The notes beneath the pieces are model-generated. The model worked only from the letters and a program-made list of their open reading frames with translations. It searched no databases and was not told where the DNA came from. A stretch of DNA of 64,000 nt from a virus, in IMG/VR virus record IMGVR_UViG_3300026382_000006, positions 122,214-186,213 of that record; one strand, given 5' to 3'. Positions 2,544 through 64,000 of the stretch are shown piece after piece (position 1 is the stretch's first letter; the number at the start of each line of letters is the position of its first letter). The position numbers and the translations under genes are program-made.

Positions 2544-3017
2544 ATGAAGAAATTAGTAAAATTATTTATGAATAAATTAAATATTAAAAAAGAAGATAAA
2601 TTAGTAATAAGGACATTAGGAATAGGTAAAGATTATTTAAGTAATGTCTACTTATCCACTACATTAGACTCAGAGTTAAGAAAAGAATTTATAGAGGAAA
2701 ATCGTGATGTAGAAATATTAAATATAGGTAATGAAGATATTACAATAGTTGATTACAAGTTGTATAATAAATGGAGTACAAAACAAAAAGAAAAAAATTG
2801 TAATTGTAGAGAGTATGAAATTAAATTACATAGTAAACTGATAAAAGAATTAATTTTAAATTTGATTAAAAAATTAAATATAGAAATATTAGAAAAGGAA
2901 ATGAAGTATGAAAATAAGTATTTATATTTAAAAGTAAAAAAGAATGAAAATATAGCCATATTTGAGGATGCGTTAAATAAAATATTAGATATGGATAATG
3001 AAAGAGATCAAATCTAG
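2544..3017 (+). CDS. Hypothetical protein, 157 aa
   Basis: I do not recognise this protein. It is lysine- and glutamate-rich, has no membrane segment or signal peptide, and contains a CNC motif near residue 85. The start ATG follows AAAGGATGATAT at normal spacing. It is a lone plus-strand gene facing the minus-strand gene at 3044, and its TAG stop lies inside the shared terminator hairpin. The structured region 2160-2520 is directly upstream and probably contains its promoter. Confidence 0.75.
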   Translation: MKKLVKLFMNKLNIKKEDKLVIRTLGIGKDYLSNVYLSTTLDSELRKEFIEENRDVEILNIGNEDITIVDYKLYNKWSTKQKEKNCNCREYEIKLHSKLIKELILNLIKKLNIEILEKEMKYENKYLYLKVKKNENIAIFEDALNKILDMDNERDQI

Positions 3018-3042
3018 ATAGGATATTAAATCCTATCTAGAT
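3012..3042. terminator. Bidirectional hairpin terminator
   Basis: A perfect 13-bp inverted repeat (ATCTAGATAGGAT and its complement) with a 5-base loop sits between convergent genes. It contains the stop codon of the plus-strand gene. Confidence 0.75.
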
Positions 3043-3043
3043 A

Positions 3044-3406
3044 TTATAATTTAAATTCTGTTGTAATTTCATAATTAGCTATAATGTGTTTAAGACATAA
3101 CTTAGACAATATTTCTTCTAATTCTGAAATAGTTAGATTTATATTTTTTAAGTAAATAAATAATTTTTTATTTTCTATTTTTAGTATTAATTTACCAGGT
3201 ATGTATTTGTATTTATATTTGATAGTGTTTTCTGATACATCTGATACAATTTCATATCCAGTTAAATGTTTGTATAGTGGAATACCGTTTATTTGTCTTT
3301 CTAGAGCTGGTATATGTTTTAATTGTTTTCTGATATGGTAAGTTATATCTTCTATGGACTCACTTATTAGAGAGTCTTCTAGAGTACAAATAGCTGCTAA
3401 AATCAT
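3044..3406 (-). CDS. Hypothetical protein, 120 aa
   Basis: The product is not recognised. It is a soluble-looking mixed alpha/beta protein with no clear motif; the middle is rich in lysine and tyrosine (residues 62-88). The start is supported by AAAGGAGAATAAAA directly before the ATG. It ends two bases after the convergent terminator hairpin and follows the MazG-like gene, separated from it by another hairpin at 3442-3469. Confidence 0.75.
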   Translation of the reverse strand: MILAAICTLEDSLISESIEDITYHIRKQLKHIPALERQINGIPLYKHLTGYEIVSDVSENTIKYKYKYIPGKLILKIENKKLFIYLKNINLTISELEEILSKLCLKHIIANYEITTEFKL

Positions 3407-3441
3407 TTTTATTCTCCTTTAATTTAAAATTTAGATTAATC

Positions 3442-3469
3442 AGTATAGTAGGAAGTTTCCTACTATACT
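3442..3469 (-). terminator. Hairpin at the end of the MazG-like gene
   Basis: A perfect 13-bp inverted repeat with a 2-base loop contains the TAG stop of the gene at 3468. The downstream minus-strand tail is not T-rich, so it may work as an RNA 3' end or processing site rather than a classical intrinsic terminator. Confidence 0.55.
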
Positions 3470-4085
3470 ATTTTTTACCTGCTAGGATTTGTCTTTCTTT
3501 TTCTAGATTCCTATTTAGAGTATTTTCGACAGTAAATTTTTCTGGATATCTAGCTTGTAATTTTTCGATGTTGATTCTACATATAGTAGGTAATTCGAAA
3601 TCTTTTACATCTTTAGGTAAATCTAGATTAATATCGTTTTGTAGTTTAAATTCTACTAATTGGATATTTTGTTTTATATAATCTTTTATAATATTTAAAT
3701 CTAGTTTTTTACCATAGAATAATGTAGCTTTAATAGCAGATATGACTTCACCGCTATCAGTATCAAAATTAGAAAAATCATCAGCGTCTATATCACCTAC
3801 ATACAATTTCTTATAAAATTCATCTACCTCATTTGTGAAATTATCATCGTTTATTGCATCAGTTAAGATTGCAATAAACCATAAAATATCGCCTAACTCT
3901 TCAACACCATTCACATAGTCTTCTGCATTTAAAAATTCCATCCATTCTGACTCTACACCCAAAATAGCATGCAACATTCTATGGTTTAAACCTAATTCGT
4001 TTACAGAATCTTTTAATGGATTTATAGTAGATTCTGTTCTTTTAGCTAATTCGATGTATTGTCTAAATGACATAATGTTTTCCAT
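3468..4085 (-). CDS. MazG-like nucleotide pyrophosphohydrolase
   Basis: Proteins of the all-alpha MazG/dUTPase superfamily hydrolyse nucleoside triphosphates to monophosphates with Mg2+. The metal-binding pattern is visible: E47-x2-E50 in GVESEWMEF, then E63-x2-D66 in VEELGDILWF. The C-terminus has the family-typical block with NIEKLQARYPEKF around residues 170-182 followed by NRNLEKERQIL. At 205 residues it is somewhat longer than a minimal single-domain MazG. A role in nucleotide pool control or in lowering host (p)ppGpp is known for some phage members; here it is inference. The start ATG follows AAAGGATTAAT. Confidence 0.75.
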   Translation of the reverse strand: MENIMSFRQYIELAKRTESTINPLKDSVNELGLNHRMLHAILGVESEWMEFLNAEDYVNGVEELGDILWFIAILTDAINDDNFTNEVDEFYKKLYVGDIDADDFSNFDTDSGEVISAIKATLFYGKKLDLNIIKDYIKQNIQLVEFKLQNDINLDLPKDVKDFELPTICRINIEKLQARYPEKFTVENTLNRNLEKERQILAGKK

Positions 4086-4114
4086 ATTAATCCTTTAAAT
4101 TGGTATTTGCATTT

Positions 4115-4136
4115 GAATAATATATAAATGAAAAAT
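4115..4136 (-). promoter_or_regulatory. Promoter-like A/T motif
   Basis: On the minus strand it reads TTTTTCATTTATATATTATT, lying after the terminator of the upstream gene and about 30 bases before the MazG-like gene. It matches the motif seen before many minus-strand units in this window. Confidence 0.5.
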
Positions 4137-4140
4137 ATTT

Positions 4141-4163
4141 ACTATAGGGACATACCCTATAGT
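4141..4163 (-). terminator. Hairpin terminator overlapping a stop codon
   Basis: A 9-bp stem ACTATAGGG/CCCTATAGT includes the TAG stop of the gene at 4157. The minus-strand tail is A/T-rich. Confidence 0.65.
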
Positions 4164-5110
4164 AAATTTAGATTATCATCTATTACGGTATTTAATACCT
4201 TTTTAATCTCTTTTGTTTTATAAAGAGATTTTTTACCTTCTAATAATTTTCTTATCATACTTCTATTGTTTATTCCTTCATTTATTACTGATAAAACAAT
4301 TGCTAAATAAGTAGGTAAATGTTCAGTCATTGCTAAGGCCAATTCTTTAGCATTTATTGCAAAAAATGTCCTACTTAATGCTTGGACTAACATATCAGCA
4401 GTAATACCTCTAGCTCTTTTACTATCTATTAAGGCACCTATATTATGCGTAAGGTCGGTAATGTATCTACTAGGTATGATTAAATCTTGGTTATAGAGAA
4501 TTCCGTCATCTATATCTGTTAAGTCGCCATTCATTAATCTTCTAGGATAAGGATCAGGTAAAGCATCTATAATATCTTCTTTATCAGTTATTTCACTATC
4601 TTCCATATCCATTGTAAGATAGTGAATCATTGCTAAAACAGTCACTGCTTCTTGTAATTGTTTATCATATGTCATCACTGTTACAATAGTACCTATTATG
4701 TTACCAAATAATAGATTTAATTTATTATTTATACTTAATAGAAAACTGTCATCATTATCTAAAATTAATTTATTAAAAATTAACCTGTTTAACTGTAATT
4801 TACCATTATATTTATCAGCTAGATAATCAGTAACATTTATCATATCGTCTAGATTTTGTCTCATATACAATCTCATATCTACAGCAATAGTAGTTCTATG
4901 TTTATGGTCTTCAAAAATTATTGGATGTTGAAATTCTGGTAAATCTTTTTCTTGTTCATTTTTACCAGTAATTATAACTACCCTAGCTTTATCTTCTTTT
5001 ACTTCATAATTTAAAGGTTCGTTATTATTAATTAAATACGTATTTAAAGATTTTATTATTTTATCTGTATTTATAGATTCGCCTAATGTACCATCATATA
5101 CATTTAACAT
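4157..5110 (-). CDS. Conserved-looking hypothetical protein, 317 aa
   Basis: I do not recognise this protein. It starts with MLNVYDGTLG after a clear TAAGGAGAATAGC site. It looks mostly alpha-helical from about residue 75 on, with a hydrophobic stretch near residues 130-160 (NLLFGNIIGTIVTVMTYD and LQEAVTVLAMIHYL) that is amphipathic rather than clearly membrane-spanning. The acidic segment MEDSEITDKEDIIDALPDP follows. It is the first gene of a group of short genes running toward 3468 and could be a virion or internal head protein, but nothing in the sequence proves this. Confidence 0.75.
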   Translation of the reverse strand: MLNVYDGTLGESINTDKIIKSLNTYLINNNEPLNYEVKEDKARVVIITGKNEQEKDLPEFQHPIIFEDHKHRTTIAVDMRLYMRQNLDDMINVTDYLADKYNGKLQLNRLIFNKLILDNDDSFLLSINNKLNLLFGNIIGTIVTVMTYDKQLQEAVTVLAMIHYLTMDMEDSEITDKEDIIDALPDPYPRRLMNGDLTDIDDGILYNQDLIIPSRYITDLTHNIGALIDSKRARGITADMLVQALSRTFFAINAKELALAMTEHLPTYLAIVLSVINEGINNRSMIRKLLEGKKSLYKTKEIKKVLNTVIDDNLNLL

Positions 5111-6219: not shown

Positions 6220-8023
6220 CGAATCCAAACATACCGACATTAGGTGTATAGTATTGCTGTGGCTGAGCACTATATCCGAAATTGATATTCTGCATTTTTG
6301 CATTACCATATGCAGCAGCAATTGCTTGTAGGTTGTTGTAGTTAGTAAATCCAACTTGACCAATATCAGATTTAGGATTATAACCTGCAGCCATTGCTTT
6401 CTCTACTATTTCAGATACGAATGCTGCGTTTAACGGAATCCTTACTGCTTTACCAGTAATTACCGCATTTGGAATTAGCGCATTAATTACTTCTAGTTTA
6501 AGCAGATATGGATCCATTCCAGTTACTTTACCAGGTACATTACTCATAATCCATTTGAATACTAGATTAATATCATTTGTTTTATCTAGTACAAATGCTA
6601 AATCGATTTCCCTAATATCTCTTTTTGTACCTGTATTATCTACCCATTCACCAACTGGTACTACAATACCATCATTTGCTGCTACTTGTCTGTTTTGAAT
6701 TTGTTGTCCTAATAGTAACTCTGCTGTTTTAACAATTTCATCATTTGCTTTAGCGGCTACACCTGGTACGGCCAACGCAGCAAATGGCGCGAGTGTTCCA
6801 AAGTTAGGACCAAAGTTTTCAATTTCAATAGCAACAATTGGTTGGAATTGTACCATGTTAGTTAGAATTTGATAAACTTTATCATCTGTTAGTTTACCAT
6901 CTTTTAGTTTAATTTTCTTACCATAACCAGATTTGTCTTGGTCCATATTCGCTAGTACATTCAATACACCTAAATCTCTATTAACACCAGTCAATAATCT
7001 TAATAACATACTCGGGTTACTGAATGTTGCACTGTTGATTATACTTAGTAAAGTCATTTCACTAGTTGGTCTACTAGCATGGAACTCGTCTAGGATAATC
7101 ATTGGTGTAAACATCTTTTTAGTAACTCCTGGTGCTACTGCTACATCTTCAGGTAGATACTCCATATAACCTACTACTGTAGATGTTCTCTTTCTAGTGT
7201 CTCTTGGCATAATGCCTTGTACGTTTACATTTGTAACTTTATATAGGTCTAATTCAAAATCAGCTCTGATTGGTTTACCAACAGCATTGATTGTAACACC
7301 ATTATTAATAGCTACATCTAGTTGTAAATAACCGTTTTTACTTCTTAGGTTTTGAACATAGTTAGGTAAATTAATTGGTTTAATAATTCCTTGTTCAAGT
7401 CCTAGTTTAGCTACATTTGCATTATATGCAATTACAGCTGCTGGAACTGCTACGGTTTCTGGATCTTGGTCATATGGCACTACTAGACCTTCAGTTGGTC
7501 TTAAGTCTTTTTCTGTTACACCATATGCGTCTACAATTACTTTATTTACCAATTGTCTTAACATTGGATCTGCAAATGTATCAGCAGCTACATAAATTAA
7601 TGTACTGTTTTTGAATTTAATTTCTTCTAATATATGACTAACTTGTACTGGTTTTCTACCAGTAGCTTCAAGTAGTATTACATGGTAATATACCGCACTG
7701 CTTGCAGCTGATTTTGACGCGAGAATAACATATGAATATGGTAAATCCATAAAATCATTGTTATCTAGTTTAAAGATTCTAGTCTGGATTTCATTACCTG
7801 CTACTCTAGCTGGTTCTTTGAAAAGCTCTTTAGCTTTCTCTGTAAATTTGTTTACATATTCACTACCACTTGTAGTAGTTTTGAATAGTCCAGGTATAAA
7901 GTCATCATCGAATCCCATTGTTCCACCTGTAGCTCCACTAGTAGTACTTCCAGTATCAGTACCACCAAATACTTTTTCTACTTTTTCTTCTATGGTTGCT
8001 TTAGTTTTGTCTTTTAAAGCCAT
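6209..8023 (-). CDS. Abundant-type 604-aa protein: candidate phage-nucleus shell (chimallin-like) or major structural protein
   Basis: The exact family is not recognised. The protein is 604 residues, soluble, with a disordered Gly/Thr/Ser-rich N-terminus (residues 20-37), a conserved-looking core, and a flexible aromatic C-terminus (QPQQYY then GMFGFGGF). Its codons are noticeably richer in G+C than its neighbours and it has a long, structured leader (8024-8328), both expected of a highly expressed gene. Length near 600, unstructured terminal tails and the presence of a PhuZ-type tubulin and phage RNAP in the same genome are what would be expected of chimallin (ChmA), the shell protein of phiKZ-like phage nuclei. 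I cannot confirm homology by eye. The alternative is a major virion protein. The start follows AAAGGAGTACGAA. Confidence 0.45.
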   Translation of the reverse strand: MALKDKTKATIEEKVEKVFGGTDTGSTTSGATGGTMGFDDDFIPGLFKTTTSGSEYVNKFTEKAKELFKEPARVAGNEIQTRIFKLDNNDFMDLPYSYVILASKSAASSAVYYHVILLEATGRKPVQVSHILEEIKFKNSTLIYVAADTFADPMLRQLVNKVIVDAYGVTEKDLRPTEGLVVPYDQDPETVAVPAAVIAYNANVAKLGLEQGIIKPINLPNYVQNLRSKNGYLQLDVAINNGVTINAVGKPIRADFELDLYKVTNVNVQGIMPRDTRKRTSTVVGYMEYLPEDVAVAPGVTKKMFTPMIILDEFHASRPTSEMTLLSIINSATFSNPSMLLRLLTGVNRDLGVLNVLANMDQDKSGYGKKIKLKDGKLTDDKVYQILTNMVQFQPIVAIEIENFGPNFGTLAPFAALAVPGVAAKANDEIVKTAELLLGQQIQNRQVAANDGIVVPVGEWVDNTGTKRDIREIDLAFVLDKTNDINLVFKWIMSNVPGKVTGMDPYLLKLEVINALIPNAVITGKAVRIPLNAAFVSEIVEKAMAAGYNPKSDIGQVGFTNYNNLQAIAAAYGNAKMQNINFGYSAQPQQYYTPNVGMFGFGGF

Positions 8024-56214: not shown

Positions 56215-56242
56215 GTATCTACGAGATTTAACCCGTAGATAC
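56215..56242 (-). terminator. Hairpin at the end of the RNAP beta' gene
   Basis: The 9-bp stem GTATCTACG/CGTAGATAC contains the TAA stop of the last beta' exon. The tail is not strongly T-rich. Confidence 0.6.
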
Positions 56243-59200
56243 CAATTTTTCAAATACTGGATCTTTATCTACCTTATTGTTATCTTCATTATGTAAATAA
56301 TTAGATAACGTAGCAATAATACTAGATGGTAGATATAGATTTTTATTTACCTTAAAATAATCTAAATCCACAATATTGAACTCAGGACTAAATGTATCTG
56401 CTAGTCTCACCATTTCATTGTCTAGCAATATTGTGGCATTCATCTCGTCCGTGATGTTCAGACAGGGTCGTTACTCCTGTCCCGCGGCATTACCCGCAGC
56501 TCTAGCTTTCACTAGAGACCAGACTACACCATCACCCTTTACCATAGGATATTTTATCCCTTAGGCAGTCGGGTGCCCTCCGTTTCGAACTCACTTGAGT
56601 CCTACTCTACTCGGTTTTCACTATTCCGTTTCCAGAATAGCTATCCTTTCGACAGTCGTTGAACACACACCATATCCAATAGGACGTAGGTGCTTCGCTG
56701 CGGATTGTCCCATACTAACGAGCTTTTTACTATACCATGGAGCACTCGCCTCTCCATGCCCTTATCTAGTTTCCCAGATAAGTTAGTACTCGTTAGCTTT
56801 AGGATGTCTCCGCAATTAGGAGGGTTTTTGACTAGAGTATTCCTACTCTAGGACAGCCAACATTAACCGTCGAACGAGTACATTGTACCCGGACCATATC
56901 TTCATCCCTTACCATAGGACAATTCATCCCTTAGGCAGTCGGATGCTCCCCGTTTCCCATCTATATAGATGGTACCCTACTCGCTTTACCAGTAGTCACA
57001 CTACCAGCGGGCAGTCTTACCTTACCCTCACTATTACTATGTCTTTCGACATAGTCGCAGCTTTCGGTGGCCTCTGAACATATCCCATATCTATAGAAGA
57101 CGTAGGGACTTCGCTGCGTCGATCCCGCAACACTATGACGTTTTCACCATGCTCATCACCTCCATTACTGGGATGAGTATCATACTCGGTTTCCCGGTAT
57201 GAGTGGTAGCCATAGCTTTTACACGGTTCCCGCAGTTAGGGGAGTATTTTGCTAGAGTATTACTACCCTAGGGTGACCTCGACCCGTTAAACTTTAACAA
57301 TTCTTTTAATACCCAGAGAATCTATTATAGGAGCATTCTTACCTTTCATAAAGTTAATAATAGTCTTTTGATTTACATTAAGATGTCTAGCTGCCTCCCG
57401 TATACCATTGAATTCCTTTTTTGTTCCATCTTTAAATTCTACCAATACAGGTGTATTTCTACTATAATTAATTAAGTCATCCATACACCATTTACCATTT
57501 TTCCATAGCACCCAGCCATTTATGTTATAACACTTGTCATCGTTTAGAAATTCTGCTAACTTAGTAGTACTTATCTTTAAAAGCTTTTTAGCCGGTTTTA
57601 TACCATTAAATTCTTTTACTTCACCTGTAACCAAGTTTTTGACTTTCACTGGTTCCTTAGACTGCTTTTTGTGTAGTTTAAATAACTCATACTTTTCATG
57701 GTCTTTTAAGACGTCCAATAAGTCAGAATCTTTATATAAGTATCCTTTTTCACCAGTCAATTTTCTCCATAATTTAGTCTTATTGTTATAGAACTCTAAT
57801 TCACCAGTTTCCTTGTTTTTAACAATCACACCCCATGGTAAATCTATTAAACTGGGATCCATGAGATATTGTCTGTAACTATTGTCATCTGTTAGATAAT
57901 ATAACTCATCAGGTTCTGTCTCTGAATTAGATGTCTTGTTAAACCAAGATGGTGTCTTTTTCTCGGATATGGTGGATTTACTCAATCCTAATATTTCACT
58001 CACTCTGTTTAAGTTATCGCAAAACCATATCTTTTTATCTAGCACATTTGTTAACACATACATACCTAATTTTAGGTTTGTTCTACTATGTACGTTAGCA
58101 GAATTCTGTTCCATAGTAGTCCAGTGAATGTTTTCTAAACGATTGTCCTTTTTGTCATTATTTTTATGGTCCACAATGTAATCTGTAACAAAGTCGTTGT
58201 TTGGTAACCACGCATAAGCCATAAGGCGGTGCACCGTTGTTCTGTACTGGGGATGTGTTTGTGTTGTGATTACGACATATTCATATTCGCTGTTATGACC
58301 ATGTGTTTTTAGTTTGGTTTTTGTTAGTAGGTCATAAACATTACCAACTTTATCCACGACATATCTAGGCGCTATTGGGACAACAGCATATTCTTTTCTT
58401 GTTTTTATACTGCAAAATACAACAGGTGCGTCAAACATCGGTATGCGAACTATTTCATACGGACCATTGCCTTGTCTTATTTTGGCAGGAACGTATTTTA
58501 TAGCATCCTTTAACCATTCTAAACCTTTTGGGTATTTGTGAATCTCTGGGTATTTTATAAATTGTTTTTTGATTTTTGTTTTCATTCTTAACTCCTTTTT
58601 TAAATATTCAATATAAGGAGTCATAATAATAAAATTTATTAAGTTTAACGGGTAGTCAATGGATCACCGTTTGGCGCCTTTATTACTAGCATACTTACGC
58701 TGATAGTTTTATCTCTAACATCCTTTTTGAATTTGGTTATATATTGTAGCTGAATTGAACCTTGAAGAAGGCTTGGATTTCTGTTAAACAATATAGGTAT
58801 TCCTTTATAAGGACTCTCTTTTATTAATTCGATTAAGAGCTCGTCTATTAGTGGATCATACTTGTTTACTGAATTAAATAACAGTCTACTAGCTTTCTTA
58901 TAGGTAAATCCTCTTTTTAACAGTTTGTTTAACAGATGCGGTCTAAATGCTGTTACTCCTATTGTCCACGGTACCCATAATTCATCATAGTCAGCAGTAG
59001 ATGGTAATGACGTAATTACTGCTCTGAATGTAAAATGGGATCTACTACCATAAATATGTTTTCTTACCATACCTTTTTTACCAGCTAATTTTTCTTTTAC
59101 ATACTTGTTAAATAAGTTACTTAAATTAGCTATTAGGGTAGCTGTACCGTTTTCTACCTTTTTACTGTTTTTATCCAGATTAGCTAACTTGATAGCAAAT

Positions 59201-59877
59201 AATGCTATGTCTATTGTATCGGCTAACATGGATGTAGTATAATTACCCTTATTAGTGACTTCCATTACAAATAGTCTTTTATTTATCAGTGGTAGATAAC
59301 TGGAAAACAGTTTATCTTTATTCTCCTGATATTCTTTTAATAGCTTTTTAGCTTTAACATCTTTACCATTAGCTCTGAAAAGACTATTATTGGCTACGTA
59401 TAGTAAAATCTTTTCTATATTGGAAATTAGATTTTTATATCCTCTACCTCCTATTAATTCTTTAATAGTTTGCATAAATGCAGGTACTCCTGGTGGATTG
59501 TATGATGTATCACCTAACCATCTTACGCAATCTATTTTTCTGGATAATAGATACCGCATCTGTGTCCAAAAGTGAGGATTTAAAAATGGTAAATCATCTC
59601 TAAATTGTTCAATCCAGAGTAATGGTTTAATTTCATCAAACGTCTTGATTACTGTGGTATTGCATTTAGGACACACTTTACCTAATAGATAAGCTCCTTT
59701 ATAATTACCACACTCACATTGTGGTATTAATGTGATTTCATCCTCGTATTTAGTATAGAGGAGTTTTACTAGGTCTTCTGGATTAGTCTCTAAAAGACTA
59801 AAATTATTCAGCAACAACTTTCTTTCTGTAGCGTGAAAGTATTCGTCCAGATTTTTTATACGTTGTACAACAGGCAT
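56228..59877 (-). CDS. RNA polymerase beta' subunit, N-terminal polypeptide, in three exons
   Basis: This is the N-terminal half of a split beta' subunit of a phage multisubunit RNAP. The exons are 59877-58663, 56874-56866 and 56449-56228, joined to 481 residues. A zinc site is at Cys54, 56, 69 and 72 (CECG, CPKC). YGSRSHFTFRAVITSLPS (near 285) and FNRNPSLLQGSIQ (near 370) correspond to the GRSVI and NRAPTLHR blocks of bacterial beta'. Exon 1 ends NGD, exon 2 encodes FDG, exon 3 starts DEMNATILLDNE, restoring NGDFDGDEM, the equivalent of NADFDGDQM. Unspliced, the frame stops five residues after NGD. The start at 59877 has AAAGGAGGCCCA; a longer in-frame start has no site. The C-terminal beta' half must be elsewhere. 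Confidence 0.85.
56450..56865 (-). ncRNA. Group I intron 2 (no endonuclease gene)
   Basis: 416 bases. P1: the exon end GACGGT pairs with GCTGTC in the intron, with the U.G wobble at the splice site. The core P element is CTAATTGCGGAGA (about 56819-56807). The R element GTTCAACGACT (56664-56654) and S element GATGGTGTAGTCT (56533-56521) pair as P7 (GACT/AGTC). Three P9-type hairpins follow (CTCTAG/CTAGAG, GCGG/CCGC, GACAGG/CCTGTC). The last base is G, as required. No reading frame is present. Confidence 0.85.
56866..56874 (-). other. Nine-base micro-exon of the beta' gene
   Basis: TTCGACGGT, coding Phe-Asp-Gly, lies between the two introns. It ends in T (group I 5' splice rule), its first six bases pair with the intron 1 guide (P10, GTCGAG at 57283-57278), and its last six pair with the intron 2 guide (P1). 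It supplies the middle of the RNAP active-site motif. Confidence 0.85.
56875..58662 (-). ncRNA. Group I intron 1 with homing endonuclease gene in the P1 loop
   Basis: 1788 bases. Exon 1 ends GGTGAT, which pairs with GTCACC (57277-57272) with U.G at the splice site. The adjacent GTCGAG pairs with the start of the micro-exon (P10). A 13-bp perfect stem (58641-58653 with 57282-57294) closes the loop that holds the endonuclease gene. The core P element is CTAACTGCGGGAA (57239-57227), and R GTTCAGAGGCCA (from 57079) pairs with S AAGATATGGTCC (56902-56891) as P7 (GGCCA/TGGTC). The last base is G at 56875. Confidence 0.85.
57287..58585 (-). CDS. HNH homing endonuclease, 432 aa
   Basis: Intron-encoded HNH endonucleases cut intron-less alleles to spread the intron. 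The HNH core is at residues 119-154: VHRLMAYAWLPNND, YIVDHKNNDKKDNRLENIHW (His119, His140, Asn149). The C-terminal 250 residues carry three NUMOD1-like DNA-binding repeats (FCDNLNRVSEILGLSKSTI, EFNGIKPAKKLLKISTTKL, EFNGIREAARHLNVNQKTI). The start at 58585 follows AAAGGAGTTAAGA; an upstream in-frame ATG lacks a site. Its last codons form one arm of the intron stem. It is separate from, and not fused to, exon 1. Confidence 0.85.
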   Translation of the reverse strand: MKTKIKKQFIKYPEIHKYPKGLEWLKDAIKYVPAKIRQGNGPYEIVRIPMFDAPVVFCSIKTRKEYAVVPIAPRYVVDKVGNVYDLLTKTKLKTHGHNSEYEYVVITTQTHPQYRTTVHRLMAYAWLPNNDFVTDYIVDHKNNDKKDNRLENIHWTTMEQNSANVHSRTNLKLGMYVLTNVLDKKIWFCDNLNRVSEILGLSKSTISEKKTPSWFNKTSNSETEPDELYYLTDDNSYRQYLMDPSLIDLPWGVIVKNKETGELEFYNNKTKLWRKLTGEKGYLYKDSDLLDVLKDHEKYELFKLHKKQSKEPVKVKNLVTGEVKEFNGIKPAKKLLKISTTKLAEFLNDDKCYNINGWVLWKNGKWCMDDLINYSRNTPVLVEFKDGTKKEFNGIREAARHLNVNQKTIINFMKGKNAPIIDSLGIKRIVKV

Positions 59878-59977: not shown

Positions 59978-60006
59978 TACCAGAGGGATAGTTTATCCCT
60001 CTGGTA
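59978..60006 (-). terminator. Intrinsic terminator
   Basis: The 13-bp perfect stem beginning TACCAGAGGGATA overlaps the stop of the gene at 59993. The minus-strand tail TTTCTTTTTTCC follows. Confidence 0.8.
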
Positions 60007-61854
60007 CTGTATTTGATTTTTGATATTCTTCGGTTGTTGCCACAGTAAGCTTTGATAGTAACATAGTAAATACTAAATGTAAATCATCTACCAAGTTCAT
60101 ATGGTCTTCTTTACTCTCGTCTGCCATATAAAGTTCAATCCCATTAAATAGAACCGTATGGAAATCTTTTAGGTAACCTACTTTTTTGGCAGTATTTAAG
60201 TATTCATTTACTGTATCAAACACCTCATCTAGTTTAGAAGATAGATCAGGAAATGTCTTTACTGCATTTAATATCCAGCAAATTCTAGAATAAATAGCAA
60301 TTATAAATAGTCTCATTTCTTCATTACTTATTGATTTTTTATTCGAAATTTTGTTTTCGATGTATTGGATCACATATCCGTTCTCTTCATTAGTTAGTTT
60401 TTTATTTTCTTTAAATTTACTGTAAATGTTTGTTATGTTGGTTTCTATTTCTTTAAACTCTTCTAATTTGTATTTTGCTATAAATTTTCTTTTTCCATCG
60501 TGGGACACGTAAGTTTCATATTTGTATCCGTCTTTTACTTTAATTTCTGAAAGTATTAAATTTTCCATTTCTGGTAATTCCTTGTTGTTAGGTTGCTCAT
60601 AACAGTAATTTAAATCAGGCAATACGCTTGTAACTAGACATACGTTAGTTGTAACAGTATGCTCTGGATCAAACTCACGTTGAATTATAGGAATTATAGT
60701 CTCCACTAATTTTATAGCTTGTTCATTGTTCAATGTTACAAAGAAGTTTGCAAAATTACCAGATATATAATGGTCCATATTTCCATGATTGTTTATCCTA
60801 GCGCCTATTTTACAATCCTCTAAGTCCAAATCTAGAAATGTATTTGTATCTCTTAATACTTTATAGAGTTTGTCGATTGCTTCGTCCTTATTTTTGAAAT
60901 TCATTTTTACTCCTTCTTCGTATAATGTTTCTTTTAATTCTTTAAGATTATTCCACCAATCTTCTGTAGTTTTTATACCAATTCTTTTTCCAGTATCGGA
61001 TTCAATAATTTTTATTCCTTTACTGTTAGAATCAAATTCAGGGTTTATTCTATACAGAATAAAATCACGTTTTTCAGTTTCTTTTAGAAGATATTCTGCG
61101 TTAAGTGGTAATTTTGATATTAAATCAATTGCTAAAAAATCATCATCTTTACGTTTATACGCTAAGTAGTCAGAAATATTCAATAGGCAGTAGTTTAATG
61201 ATTTAGCTTTAATAATAAATCTTAGATAATAATCTTTTATTGTCTTTAGATAAACAGTGTATTTTCTGCTTTTACTTGTTCTTGCTATTTCTGTTCTAAT
61301 ATATTCTACCTGTCTTTTGAATTCTTCATAATCCATTTTTAACAGTTGATTTCTAACAGGTATTGGTATATAATCCATCTGGTCTTCTTTGTCCGTAAAA
61401 CATAATTCACCTTCAGAAGTTAAACAAATGCTTTTGTTTGTTTCTTTTAATATATCTTCTAGACTATTTAAAAATTCATTTTTTACAATAATTTCTTGGG
61501 AATTGTTGTTTAAATCTGGTTGTTTTGTTTCCGTTGTTGTTTCATAAAGTTCAAACTGTGGTCTTTCCCATTTTATCCAATTAGCAAATTTCGGATATTT
61601 TGTTTTAGATATAGTCATTACCTTTTTACCATTTTTATCAAAAACTGCTAATTCTGAGGTATTTAAATCTTTTATTAGATAATCGCAGTCACTGGTATGG
61701 GTAGTTAGTGATAGCTCTAGATCGGTATTAAACTTTCCATTAGGTAATGTTGTTATTAGTTTATTTAGCACGTCTAGGAAATCGCTAGGTGAGCGTACAG
61801 TGACTTTTAGAAAGTTGCATCTATTTACTTTAAGCAGAATGTTAGTTTTTCCAT
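59993..61854 (-). CDS. Hypothetical protein, about 619 aa, frame broken by one base near the start
   Basis: I do not recognise this protein. It is helical, charged, with six or more scattered cysteines. The only good start is ATG at 61854 (AAAAAAGGAGTTCAAA upstream), but that frame reads MEKLTFCLK and stops. The long frame, open to 59993, begins in the other phase just after the ATG. One extra A in the A5 run (61846-61850) would give MEKTNILLKVNRCNFLKVTV and fuse start to body. Either a -1 ribosomal slip, an A-tract indel in this isolate, or a sequencing error explains it. It lies between the RNAP beta and beta' genes, so an RNAP-associated role is conceivable but unproven. Confidence 0.6.
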
Positions 61855-63540: not shown

Positions 63541-64000
63541 ATATCAGCAGCTTTTTTACTGATTTCTCTTAATAATCTAGCAGTAGTACCCATTAGACTA
63601 GGACTGTTAACTATCCTAGCGTAAATTGCTCTAGCACTAAATAATGCATCTATTTCTTTACCAGAGTCAGATACAATCGGATAATTAAATATTTCACCTA
63701 CTGTAGTTTTTAACTGGTTACCAAAAATAGCTTTATCACCTGTTACCATTTTAGATCCTAATCTAAAGTAATATTTAATTTCTATTTTACCTGGATCTAG
63801 AGGTTTTCCTTTTATACTATAACTACTATCTACCTTACCAGTATATTTTTTACCAGTATTTTTATCTACTAAAAATTTCTCAGCATATTCTACTATTTCT
63901 CTTATTGACTCACTCATGTTTTCTTTTTCACAATGGTAAAATACTTTTACATCTATTATTTCACCTTTTACTTTAGCTTTAGGAGTAGTCTTTATAAATC
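63528..64000 (-). CDS. RNA polymerase beta subunit, C-terminal-proximal segment (5' end outside window)
   Basis: The frame is open across the window edge, so the gene begins beyond 64000. The visible 156 residues match the beta segment that follows the hybrid-binding domain. GKIEIKYYFRLGSKMVTGDK followed by AIFGNQLKTTVGEI aligns with the KVYVA ... GDKMAGRHGNKGVISKI block, and GKEIDALFSARAIYARIVNS aligns with the DIVLNPLGVPSRMNIGQ block. The protein then ends, so the beta C-terminal clamp is absent and may be a separate polypeptide (compare 16887-17558). Split beta and beta' subunits are known from phiKZ- and AR9-type phages. An internal ATG at 63917 is not a credible start because the upstream frame continues the match. 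Confidence 0.7.
   Translation of the reverse strand, partial: FIKTTPKAKVKGEIIDVKVFYHCEKENMSESIREIVEYAEKFLVDKNTGKKYTGKVDSSYSIKGKPLDPGKIEIKYYFRLGSKMVTGDKAIFGNQLKTTVGEIFNYPIVSDSGKEIDALFSARAIYARIVNSPSLMGTTARLLREISKKAADMYLG

Follow-up and report, generated by a model that had tools for sequence, protein, structure and literature searches.

Group I introns with HNH endonucleases are already known from the polymerase genes of chimalliviruses, and micro-exons enclosed by two group I introns are known from other systems. Here we analyze a 64,000-nucleotide (nt) stretch of viral DNA, positions 122,214 to 186,213 of IMG/VR record IMGVR_UViG_3300026382_000006 (hereafter the window), in which two group I introns lie 9 nt apart inside the metal-binding motif of a non-virion RNA polymerase (nvRNAP) of the phiKZ type, in the gene for its β′ N-terminal half. 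In phiKZ itself (PHIKZ055/056/056.1), the same gene and motif are interrupted by a group I intron whose P1 loop encodes an HNH endonuclease, an intron already implicit in the gene names and in a PDB construct. Unlike the window, phiKZ has a single motif intron, at KAPN^ADFDGD (carets mark insertion sites), 6 nt upstream of the site used by our intron 1, and no micro-exon. The phiPA3 endonuclease gp210, an HNH protein that harms the competing phage phiKZ, likewise comes from a group I intron that interrupts a chimallivirus polymerase gene at conserved Asp residues (Birkholz et al. 2024, PMC11620839), but the gene is that for the β subunit of the virion RNA polymerase, the motif is a different one and the intron is single.

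Very short exons between group I introns have been found elsewhere. Introns 2 and 3 of Twort orf142 surround one of 23 nt, although this is another gene, the introns are near-copies of each other and exon skipping was observed (cited in PMC10136302). In phiNIT1, cDNA revealed that two group I introns in the ribonucleotide reductase gene enclose a small exon (PMC11878797); both the gene and the phage are different ones. The micro-exon of placozoan mitochondrial cox1, supported by RNA sequencing, restores an essential residue, but it measures 1 nt and belongs to a single lineage of animal mitochondria (PMC5436844). Pseudomonas phage KEN49 (PP456877) has two introns around a micro-exon in the same nvRNAP β′ motif, which its record does not report; its sites are N^A and D^Q, so that the Asp triad stays on one exon, unlike in the window. 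The open-licence papers searched contained no text on micro-exons in a polymerase catalytic motif. What is new is the distribution of the catalytic triad over three exons, the recurrence of the design in eight lineages, phage exons as short as 6 nt, three introns in tandem and insertion sites packed this densely. With micro-exons between group I introns already on record in other systems, we regard the case as a striking variant and no new principle. Taking the evidence together, we hold it very probable that two group I introns 9 nt apart in the nvRNAP β′ motif are spliced out, presumably one after the other, and that repeated homing is their most likely origin.

The split β′ gene and its two introns

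The gene occupies window positions 59877-56228 on the minus strand, to which all coordinates in this section refer. Exon 1 (58663-59877; 405 residues ending in KAPNGD) matches the RNA polymerase β subunit family phrog_2987 (expectation value, E, 7.5e-103), is 36% identical to its counterpart in Burkholderia phage FLC9 and has phiKZ gp55-type nvRNAP subunits as relatives. Its 3′ end reads CCAAACGGTGAT (over a longer stretch, AAACGGTGAT), so that the first catalytic Asp is its last codon, GAT. The micro-exon, TTCGACGGT, is read directly at 56866-56874; its 9 nt encode Phe-Asp-Gly and thus the second catalytic Asp. Exon 3 (56228-56449; 73 residues and a stop) begins GACGAGATGAAT, opening with the third catalytic Asp, and aligns to positions 424-478 of phrog_2987, the end of the profile (E 0.0069). 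Joined, the three exons form a single open frame of 481 residues that includes KAPNGDFDGDEMNATILLDN (longer reading, KAPNGDFDGDEMN), with the motif divided as NGD/FDG/DEMN and the Asp codons GAT, GAC and GAC each on a separate exon, just as a sequence-only reading of the window had claimed. That reading had equated the motif with the universal NADFDGD; the metal-binding D-F-D-G-D is there, while the full string is NGDFDGD. The gene product is, as judged by this motif and its relatives, predicted to be the β′ N-terminal subunit of the nvRNAP.

The spliced protein finds its best PDB match in 7ogp_A (E 3e-70), to which it aligns from one end to the other and without gaps over the motif and both junctions. 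The molecule name in PDB 7OGP denotes a fusion of PHIKZ055, DNA-directed RNA polymerase, with PHIKZ056.1, which supports splicing because such a fusion exists only if the phiKZ motif intron is removed. The phiKZ junction predicted here also agrees with the published numbering 417-DFDGD-421 (PMC8287921), giving the way in which junctions were called an outside check.

Intron 1 (56875-58662; 1788 nt, site AD^F) aligns to the full length of the Rfam group I model RF00028 with 41.6 bits (E 2.3e-9 in a narrow, 441-base search), below the gathering score of 50. Its ribozyme core (P3-P8 region, 56892-57238) can be aligned along that of intron 2 and with the intron cores of Vibrio phage pir03 and of relative L050. 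The internal guide, at 57272-57283, consists of two contiguous halves, GTCGAG for P10 and GTCACC for P1, which form 6 base pairs (bp) each as TTCGAC/GTCGAG and GGTGAT/GTCACC, the latter with a U.G pair. This is the best P1 plus P10 combination among all G positions in the intron, and only 385 of 200,000 random window junctions (0.19%) reach at least 6 bp in both helices in the 80 nt preceding the core of intron 1. A 1.3-kb open reading frame (ORF; 57287-58624, listed as 445 residues) separates the 5′ splice site from the guide (intron position 1385), which places it in the P1 loop, as in phiKZ. Its domains (HNH_3, E 3.4e-8; NUMOD1, 5.2e-9; I-HmuI-like NUMOD, 2.4e-6), its match to phrog_59 (3e-21) and its position suggest a putative I-HmuI-like HNH intron-homing endonuclease. 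A match to RF02667 within this ORF was far under its cut-off and was set aside.

Intron 2 (56450-56865; 416 nt, site FDG^D) has no ORF and exceeds the RF00028 cut-off of 50 with 74.7 bits (E 1.6e-18). Its guide, GCTGTC (56852-56857), forms an exact 6-bp P1 with GACGGT, including a U.G pair, at the best site in the intron. Both introns thus have the U.G wobble at the 5′ splice site in P1, and both end in G. The RF00028 matches come from narrower and more permissive Rfam searches; a default-filter run over the whole window matched neither intron. The pairings, the contiguous guide halves of intron 1 and the terminal G of both introns are exactly those of the sequence-only reading, whose assignment of both introns to group I passes the covariance model for intron 2 and falls short of its cut-off for intron 1.

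Intron insertion in the motif among relatives

Relatives were collected from IMG/VR and phage records: an alignment query returned 106, of which 80 were kept, and scanning viral contigs with a single protein gave none. Placed on a tree, the 99 distinct exon 1 proteins come from 66 uninterrupted genes, 25 with a single insertion position and eight with introns stacked around micro-exons, counts that are approximate because a few contigs end near the motif (L128, for example) and upstream RN^P introns were counted as single. The nearest relative of the window gene, L022, has an uninterrupted motif, that is, an empty site; in other genomes one or the other of the two sites used in the window is occupied singly, and two, L046 and L033, share its 9-nt layout. 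These about 100 relatives uphold the two introns, their splice sites and the micro-exon as the sequence-only reading had placed them. The architecture proved not to be unique, however, as seven other genomes have micro-exons in the motif. No two of the eight micro-exon genomes are sisters on the exon 1 protein tree, and this scatter implies recurrent origin.

As read from the sequences, at least nine insertion sites fall in a stretch of about 25 nt, and the motif looks like an intron hot spot. Introns are found at RN^P, upstream of the motif (L098, with its fourth intron, among others); at KA^P in LucasX; in the F codon of GFN in L026 and L170; at N^A in phiKZ, L050, L073 and KEN49; at A^D in L098; at AD^F, the site of intron 1, in L033, L037, L044, L046, L050, L051, L169 and L170; one nucleotide into the F codon in L039 and L062; at FD^G in L159; at FDG^D, the site of intron 2, in Serratia phage BUCT660, L026, L029, L033, L038, L046, L048, L058, L069, L098 and L167; and at D^Q in PS119XW, PA7, OMKO1, KEN49, L024, L025, L050 and L170. 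A DNA pattern, TWYGACGGT followed by TTGCCGTC, was also tried as a probe; it gave mostly chance matches, with no group I core after it at the loci examined.

Motif micro-exons range from 6 to 20 nt among the eight genomes. Those of L046 (TTTGACGGT) and L033 (TACGACGGT) have 9 nt, as in the window; KEN49 has one of 18 nt (GCTGATTTTGACGGAGAT) with all three Asp codons, and L026 one of 20 nt (TTAATGCAGATTTTGACGGT). Three tandem group I introns enclose two micro-exons in L050 (7249-8668; GCGGAT, 6 nt, and TTTGATGGTGAT, 12 nt), and three introns do so in L170 (TCAACGCTGAT, 11 nt, and TTCGATGGTGAT, 12 nt). L098 (7194-8740) has a 12-nt micro-exon (GATTACGACGGT) and a probable 15-nt exon with uncertain edges, and probably carries four group I introns over the last part of β′ exon 1 and the motif. 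RF00028 matches all introns in KEN49, L026, L033 (one at 49.5 bits), L046 and L170 and three in L098, and matches introns 2 and 3 of L050 weakly (33.1 and 21.8 bits). Guides are strong in intron 2 of L046 (P1 7 bp, P10 8 bp) and in the last intron of L098 (6 and 4 bp) and weak in intron 1 of L033 and introns 2 and 3 of L170, which makes a few exact boundaries outside the window less certain. KEN49, an isolate, is the only phage record spanning both sides of its micro-exon; the predicted joined sequence over its 18-nt exon is KAPNADFDGDQLN. Its nvRNAP β′ gene contains three introns at 2651-4887, annotated as scattered hypothetical proteins.

How such pairs arise can be addressed with a tree of intron cores (223 columns; deep nodes weak). 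In L046 the two introns share 82% identity and pair as sisters (support 0.95); those of L033 are also sisters (0.85). Both cases fit local duplication or gene conversion. It is accordingly conceivable that paired introns come from one intron by reverse splicing or transposition to a point 9 nt away, followed by re-specification of the guide, instead of from two invasions; introns 2 and 3 of Twort are also highly similar (PMC10136302). We regard this as rather unlikely for the window, where the tree does not support local duplication: introns 1 and 2 are not sisters, intron 1 grouping instead with an intron of Vibrio phage pir03 and with L050 intron 2, and the pairs in KEN49 and L026 are likewise non-sister. 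Sister pairs in L046 and L033 as against the non-sister pair here point to more than one route to the same architecture. For the window, repeated homing is preferred: mobile group I introns, carried by HNH endonucleases, would have inserted repeatedly and independently into one highly conserved DNA target.

The pir03 relative of intron 1 (L009, 2850-4390) lies in a different gene, beside an RNA polymerase β annotation, with an unrelated-looking ORF inside.

Splice-site choice and probable order of splicing

Each ribozyme would locate its own splice sites by its own guide sequence, intron 1 by pairing with GGTGAT in exon 1 and TTCGAC in the micro-exon, and intron 2 by pairing with GACGGT in the micro-exon. 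The guides are well separated in specificity. That of intron 1 pairs 6 + 6 bp (P1 + P10) at its own sites and 3 + 0 bp at the splice sites of intron 2; that of intron 2 pairs 6 + 0 bp at its own sites and 1 + 1 bp at those of intron 1. Of the nine bases in the micro-exon, six belong to the P10 of intron 1 and six to the P1 of intron 2, with GAC common to both. Owing to this shared triplet, the two complexes cannot be fully formed together, and the introns would therefore probably splice one after the other. The end product would be a continuous NGDFDGDEMN.

In a second reading, both introns would splice, but in much of the RNA the micro-exon would be left out by joining the 5′ site of intron 1 to the 3′ site of intron 2, the ratio of products regulating the polymerase level. 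Skipping 9 nt would preserve the frame and yield a catalytically dead protein without FDG, and in phages such skipping between paired group I introns is on record for the 23-nt exon of Twort orf142 (cited in PMC10136302) and for SIOphi TerL (PMC11878797). Its likelihood here appears low. Exon skipping would lose the P10 of intron 1, because that half of the guide forms 6 bp in the micro-exon but none in exon 3; the non-sister relationship of the two introns disfavours a chimeric ribozyme; and work on tandem introns found that differing guides favour exon inclusion (PMC10136302). That the gene is inactive or decaying, or an artefact of assembly, and makes no functional nvRNAP β′ might be suspected in a metagenome contig with three exons and one very long intron, but is highly improbable given the intact exons and good guides, the same design in seven other genomes (one an isolate) and the status of this gene as the sole β′ copy of its type in a genome that looks complete.

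Sequential splicing of two introns probably placed by repeated homing is the reading we retain. The introns, the guides, the relatives with empty sites and the recurrence are seen in the sequences; splicing in the cell, its order and the evolutionary cause are conclusions drawn from them. Four points weigh against this reading: splicing itself is deduced from sequence, the window is a metagenome assembly, intron 1 scores under the RF00028 gathering score, and intron 2 essentially lacks a P10 (0 bp contiguous).

Genome context and biological meaning

The genome is a 186-kb contig (C1) whose last 125 bases (window 63876-64000) are identical to its first 125 (C1:1-125), an exact overlap that suggests a complete, circularly mapped genome. 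A 614-residue ORF on the minus strand at about window 6320-7288 (C1:128533-129501) matches a profile of the shell proteins of five relatives (E 2.5e-23) and is, by similarity, a candidate homologue of the nuclear shell protein ChmA. The phage is therefore probably nucleus-forming, of the phiKZ/chimallivirus type, although its genome is below 200 kb. The 592-residue ORF directly upstream of the polymerase gene (59993-61771, minus strand) was also considered as the shell protein and rejected: it has no PHROG, Pfam or PDB match and does not resemble the genes that relatives carry upstream.

Immediately beyond the window, on the other side of the circular junction, the virion polymerase β gene holds a third group I intron (350 nt, C1:756-1105; RF00028 100.2 bits). 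This intron splits TTDDSKR/LNFINIQNSH, three codons away from the Asp-Asp pair where the phiPA3 gp210 intron sits, so that all three introns found sit in polymerase genes at conserved motifs. The virion polymerase β′ gene of the same genome has an intact DADFDGD. The idea that no active polymerase would form without splicing can accordingly be kept for the non-virion enzyme and not for the virion polymerase.

Repeated homing to a single conserved target is the likely driver, and a nucleus-forming phage would tolerate it. A more specific scenario, which we offer tentatively, is that the motif is a battlefield of competing homing introns: each phage would face endonucleases directed at sites that differ slightly within one 25-nt target, occupation of two or three of these sites by introns would protect against several attackers at once, and the phage nucleus, by parting transcription from translation, would permit stacked introns and exons of 6-20 nt free of ribosome interference.

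Micro-exons between group I introns are rare and for the most part isolated cases; in these phages they have arisen independently in at least eight lineages, at the most conserved motif of cellular-type RNA polymerase. In practice, about one third of the relatives surveyed will have this essential subunit cut short by automatic annotation. The genomes form a natural series in which to study how neighbouring ribozymes can have a few nucleotides in common and yet avoid skipping, and how intron pairs originate, and the series also bears on whether homing endonucleases are weapons between phages with a common target.

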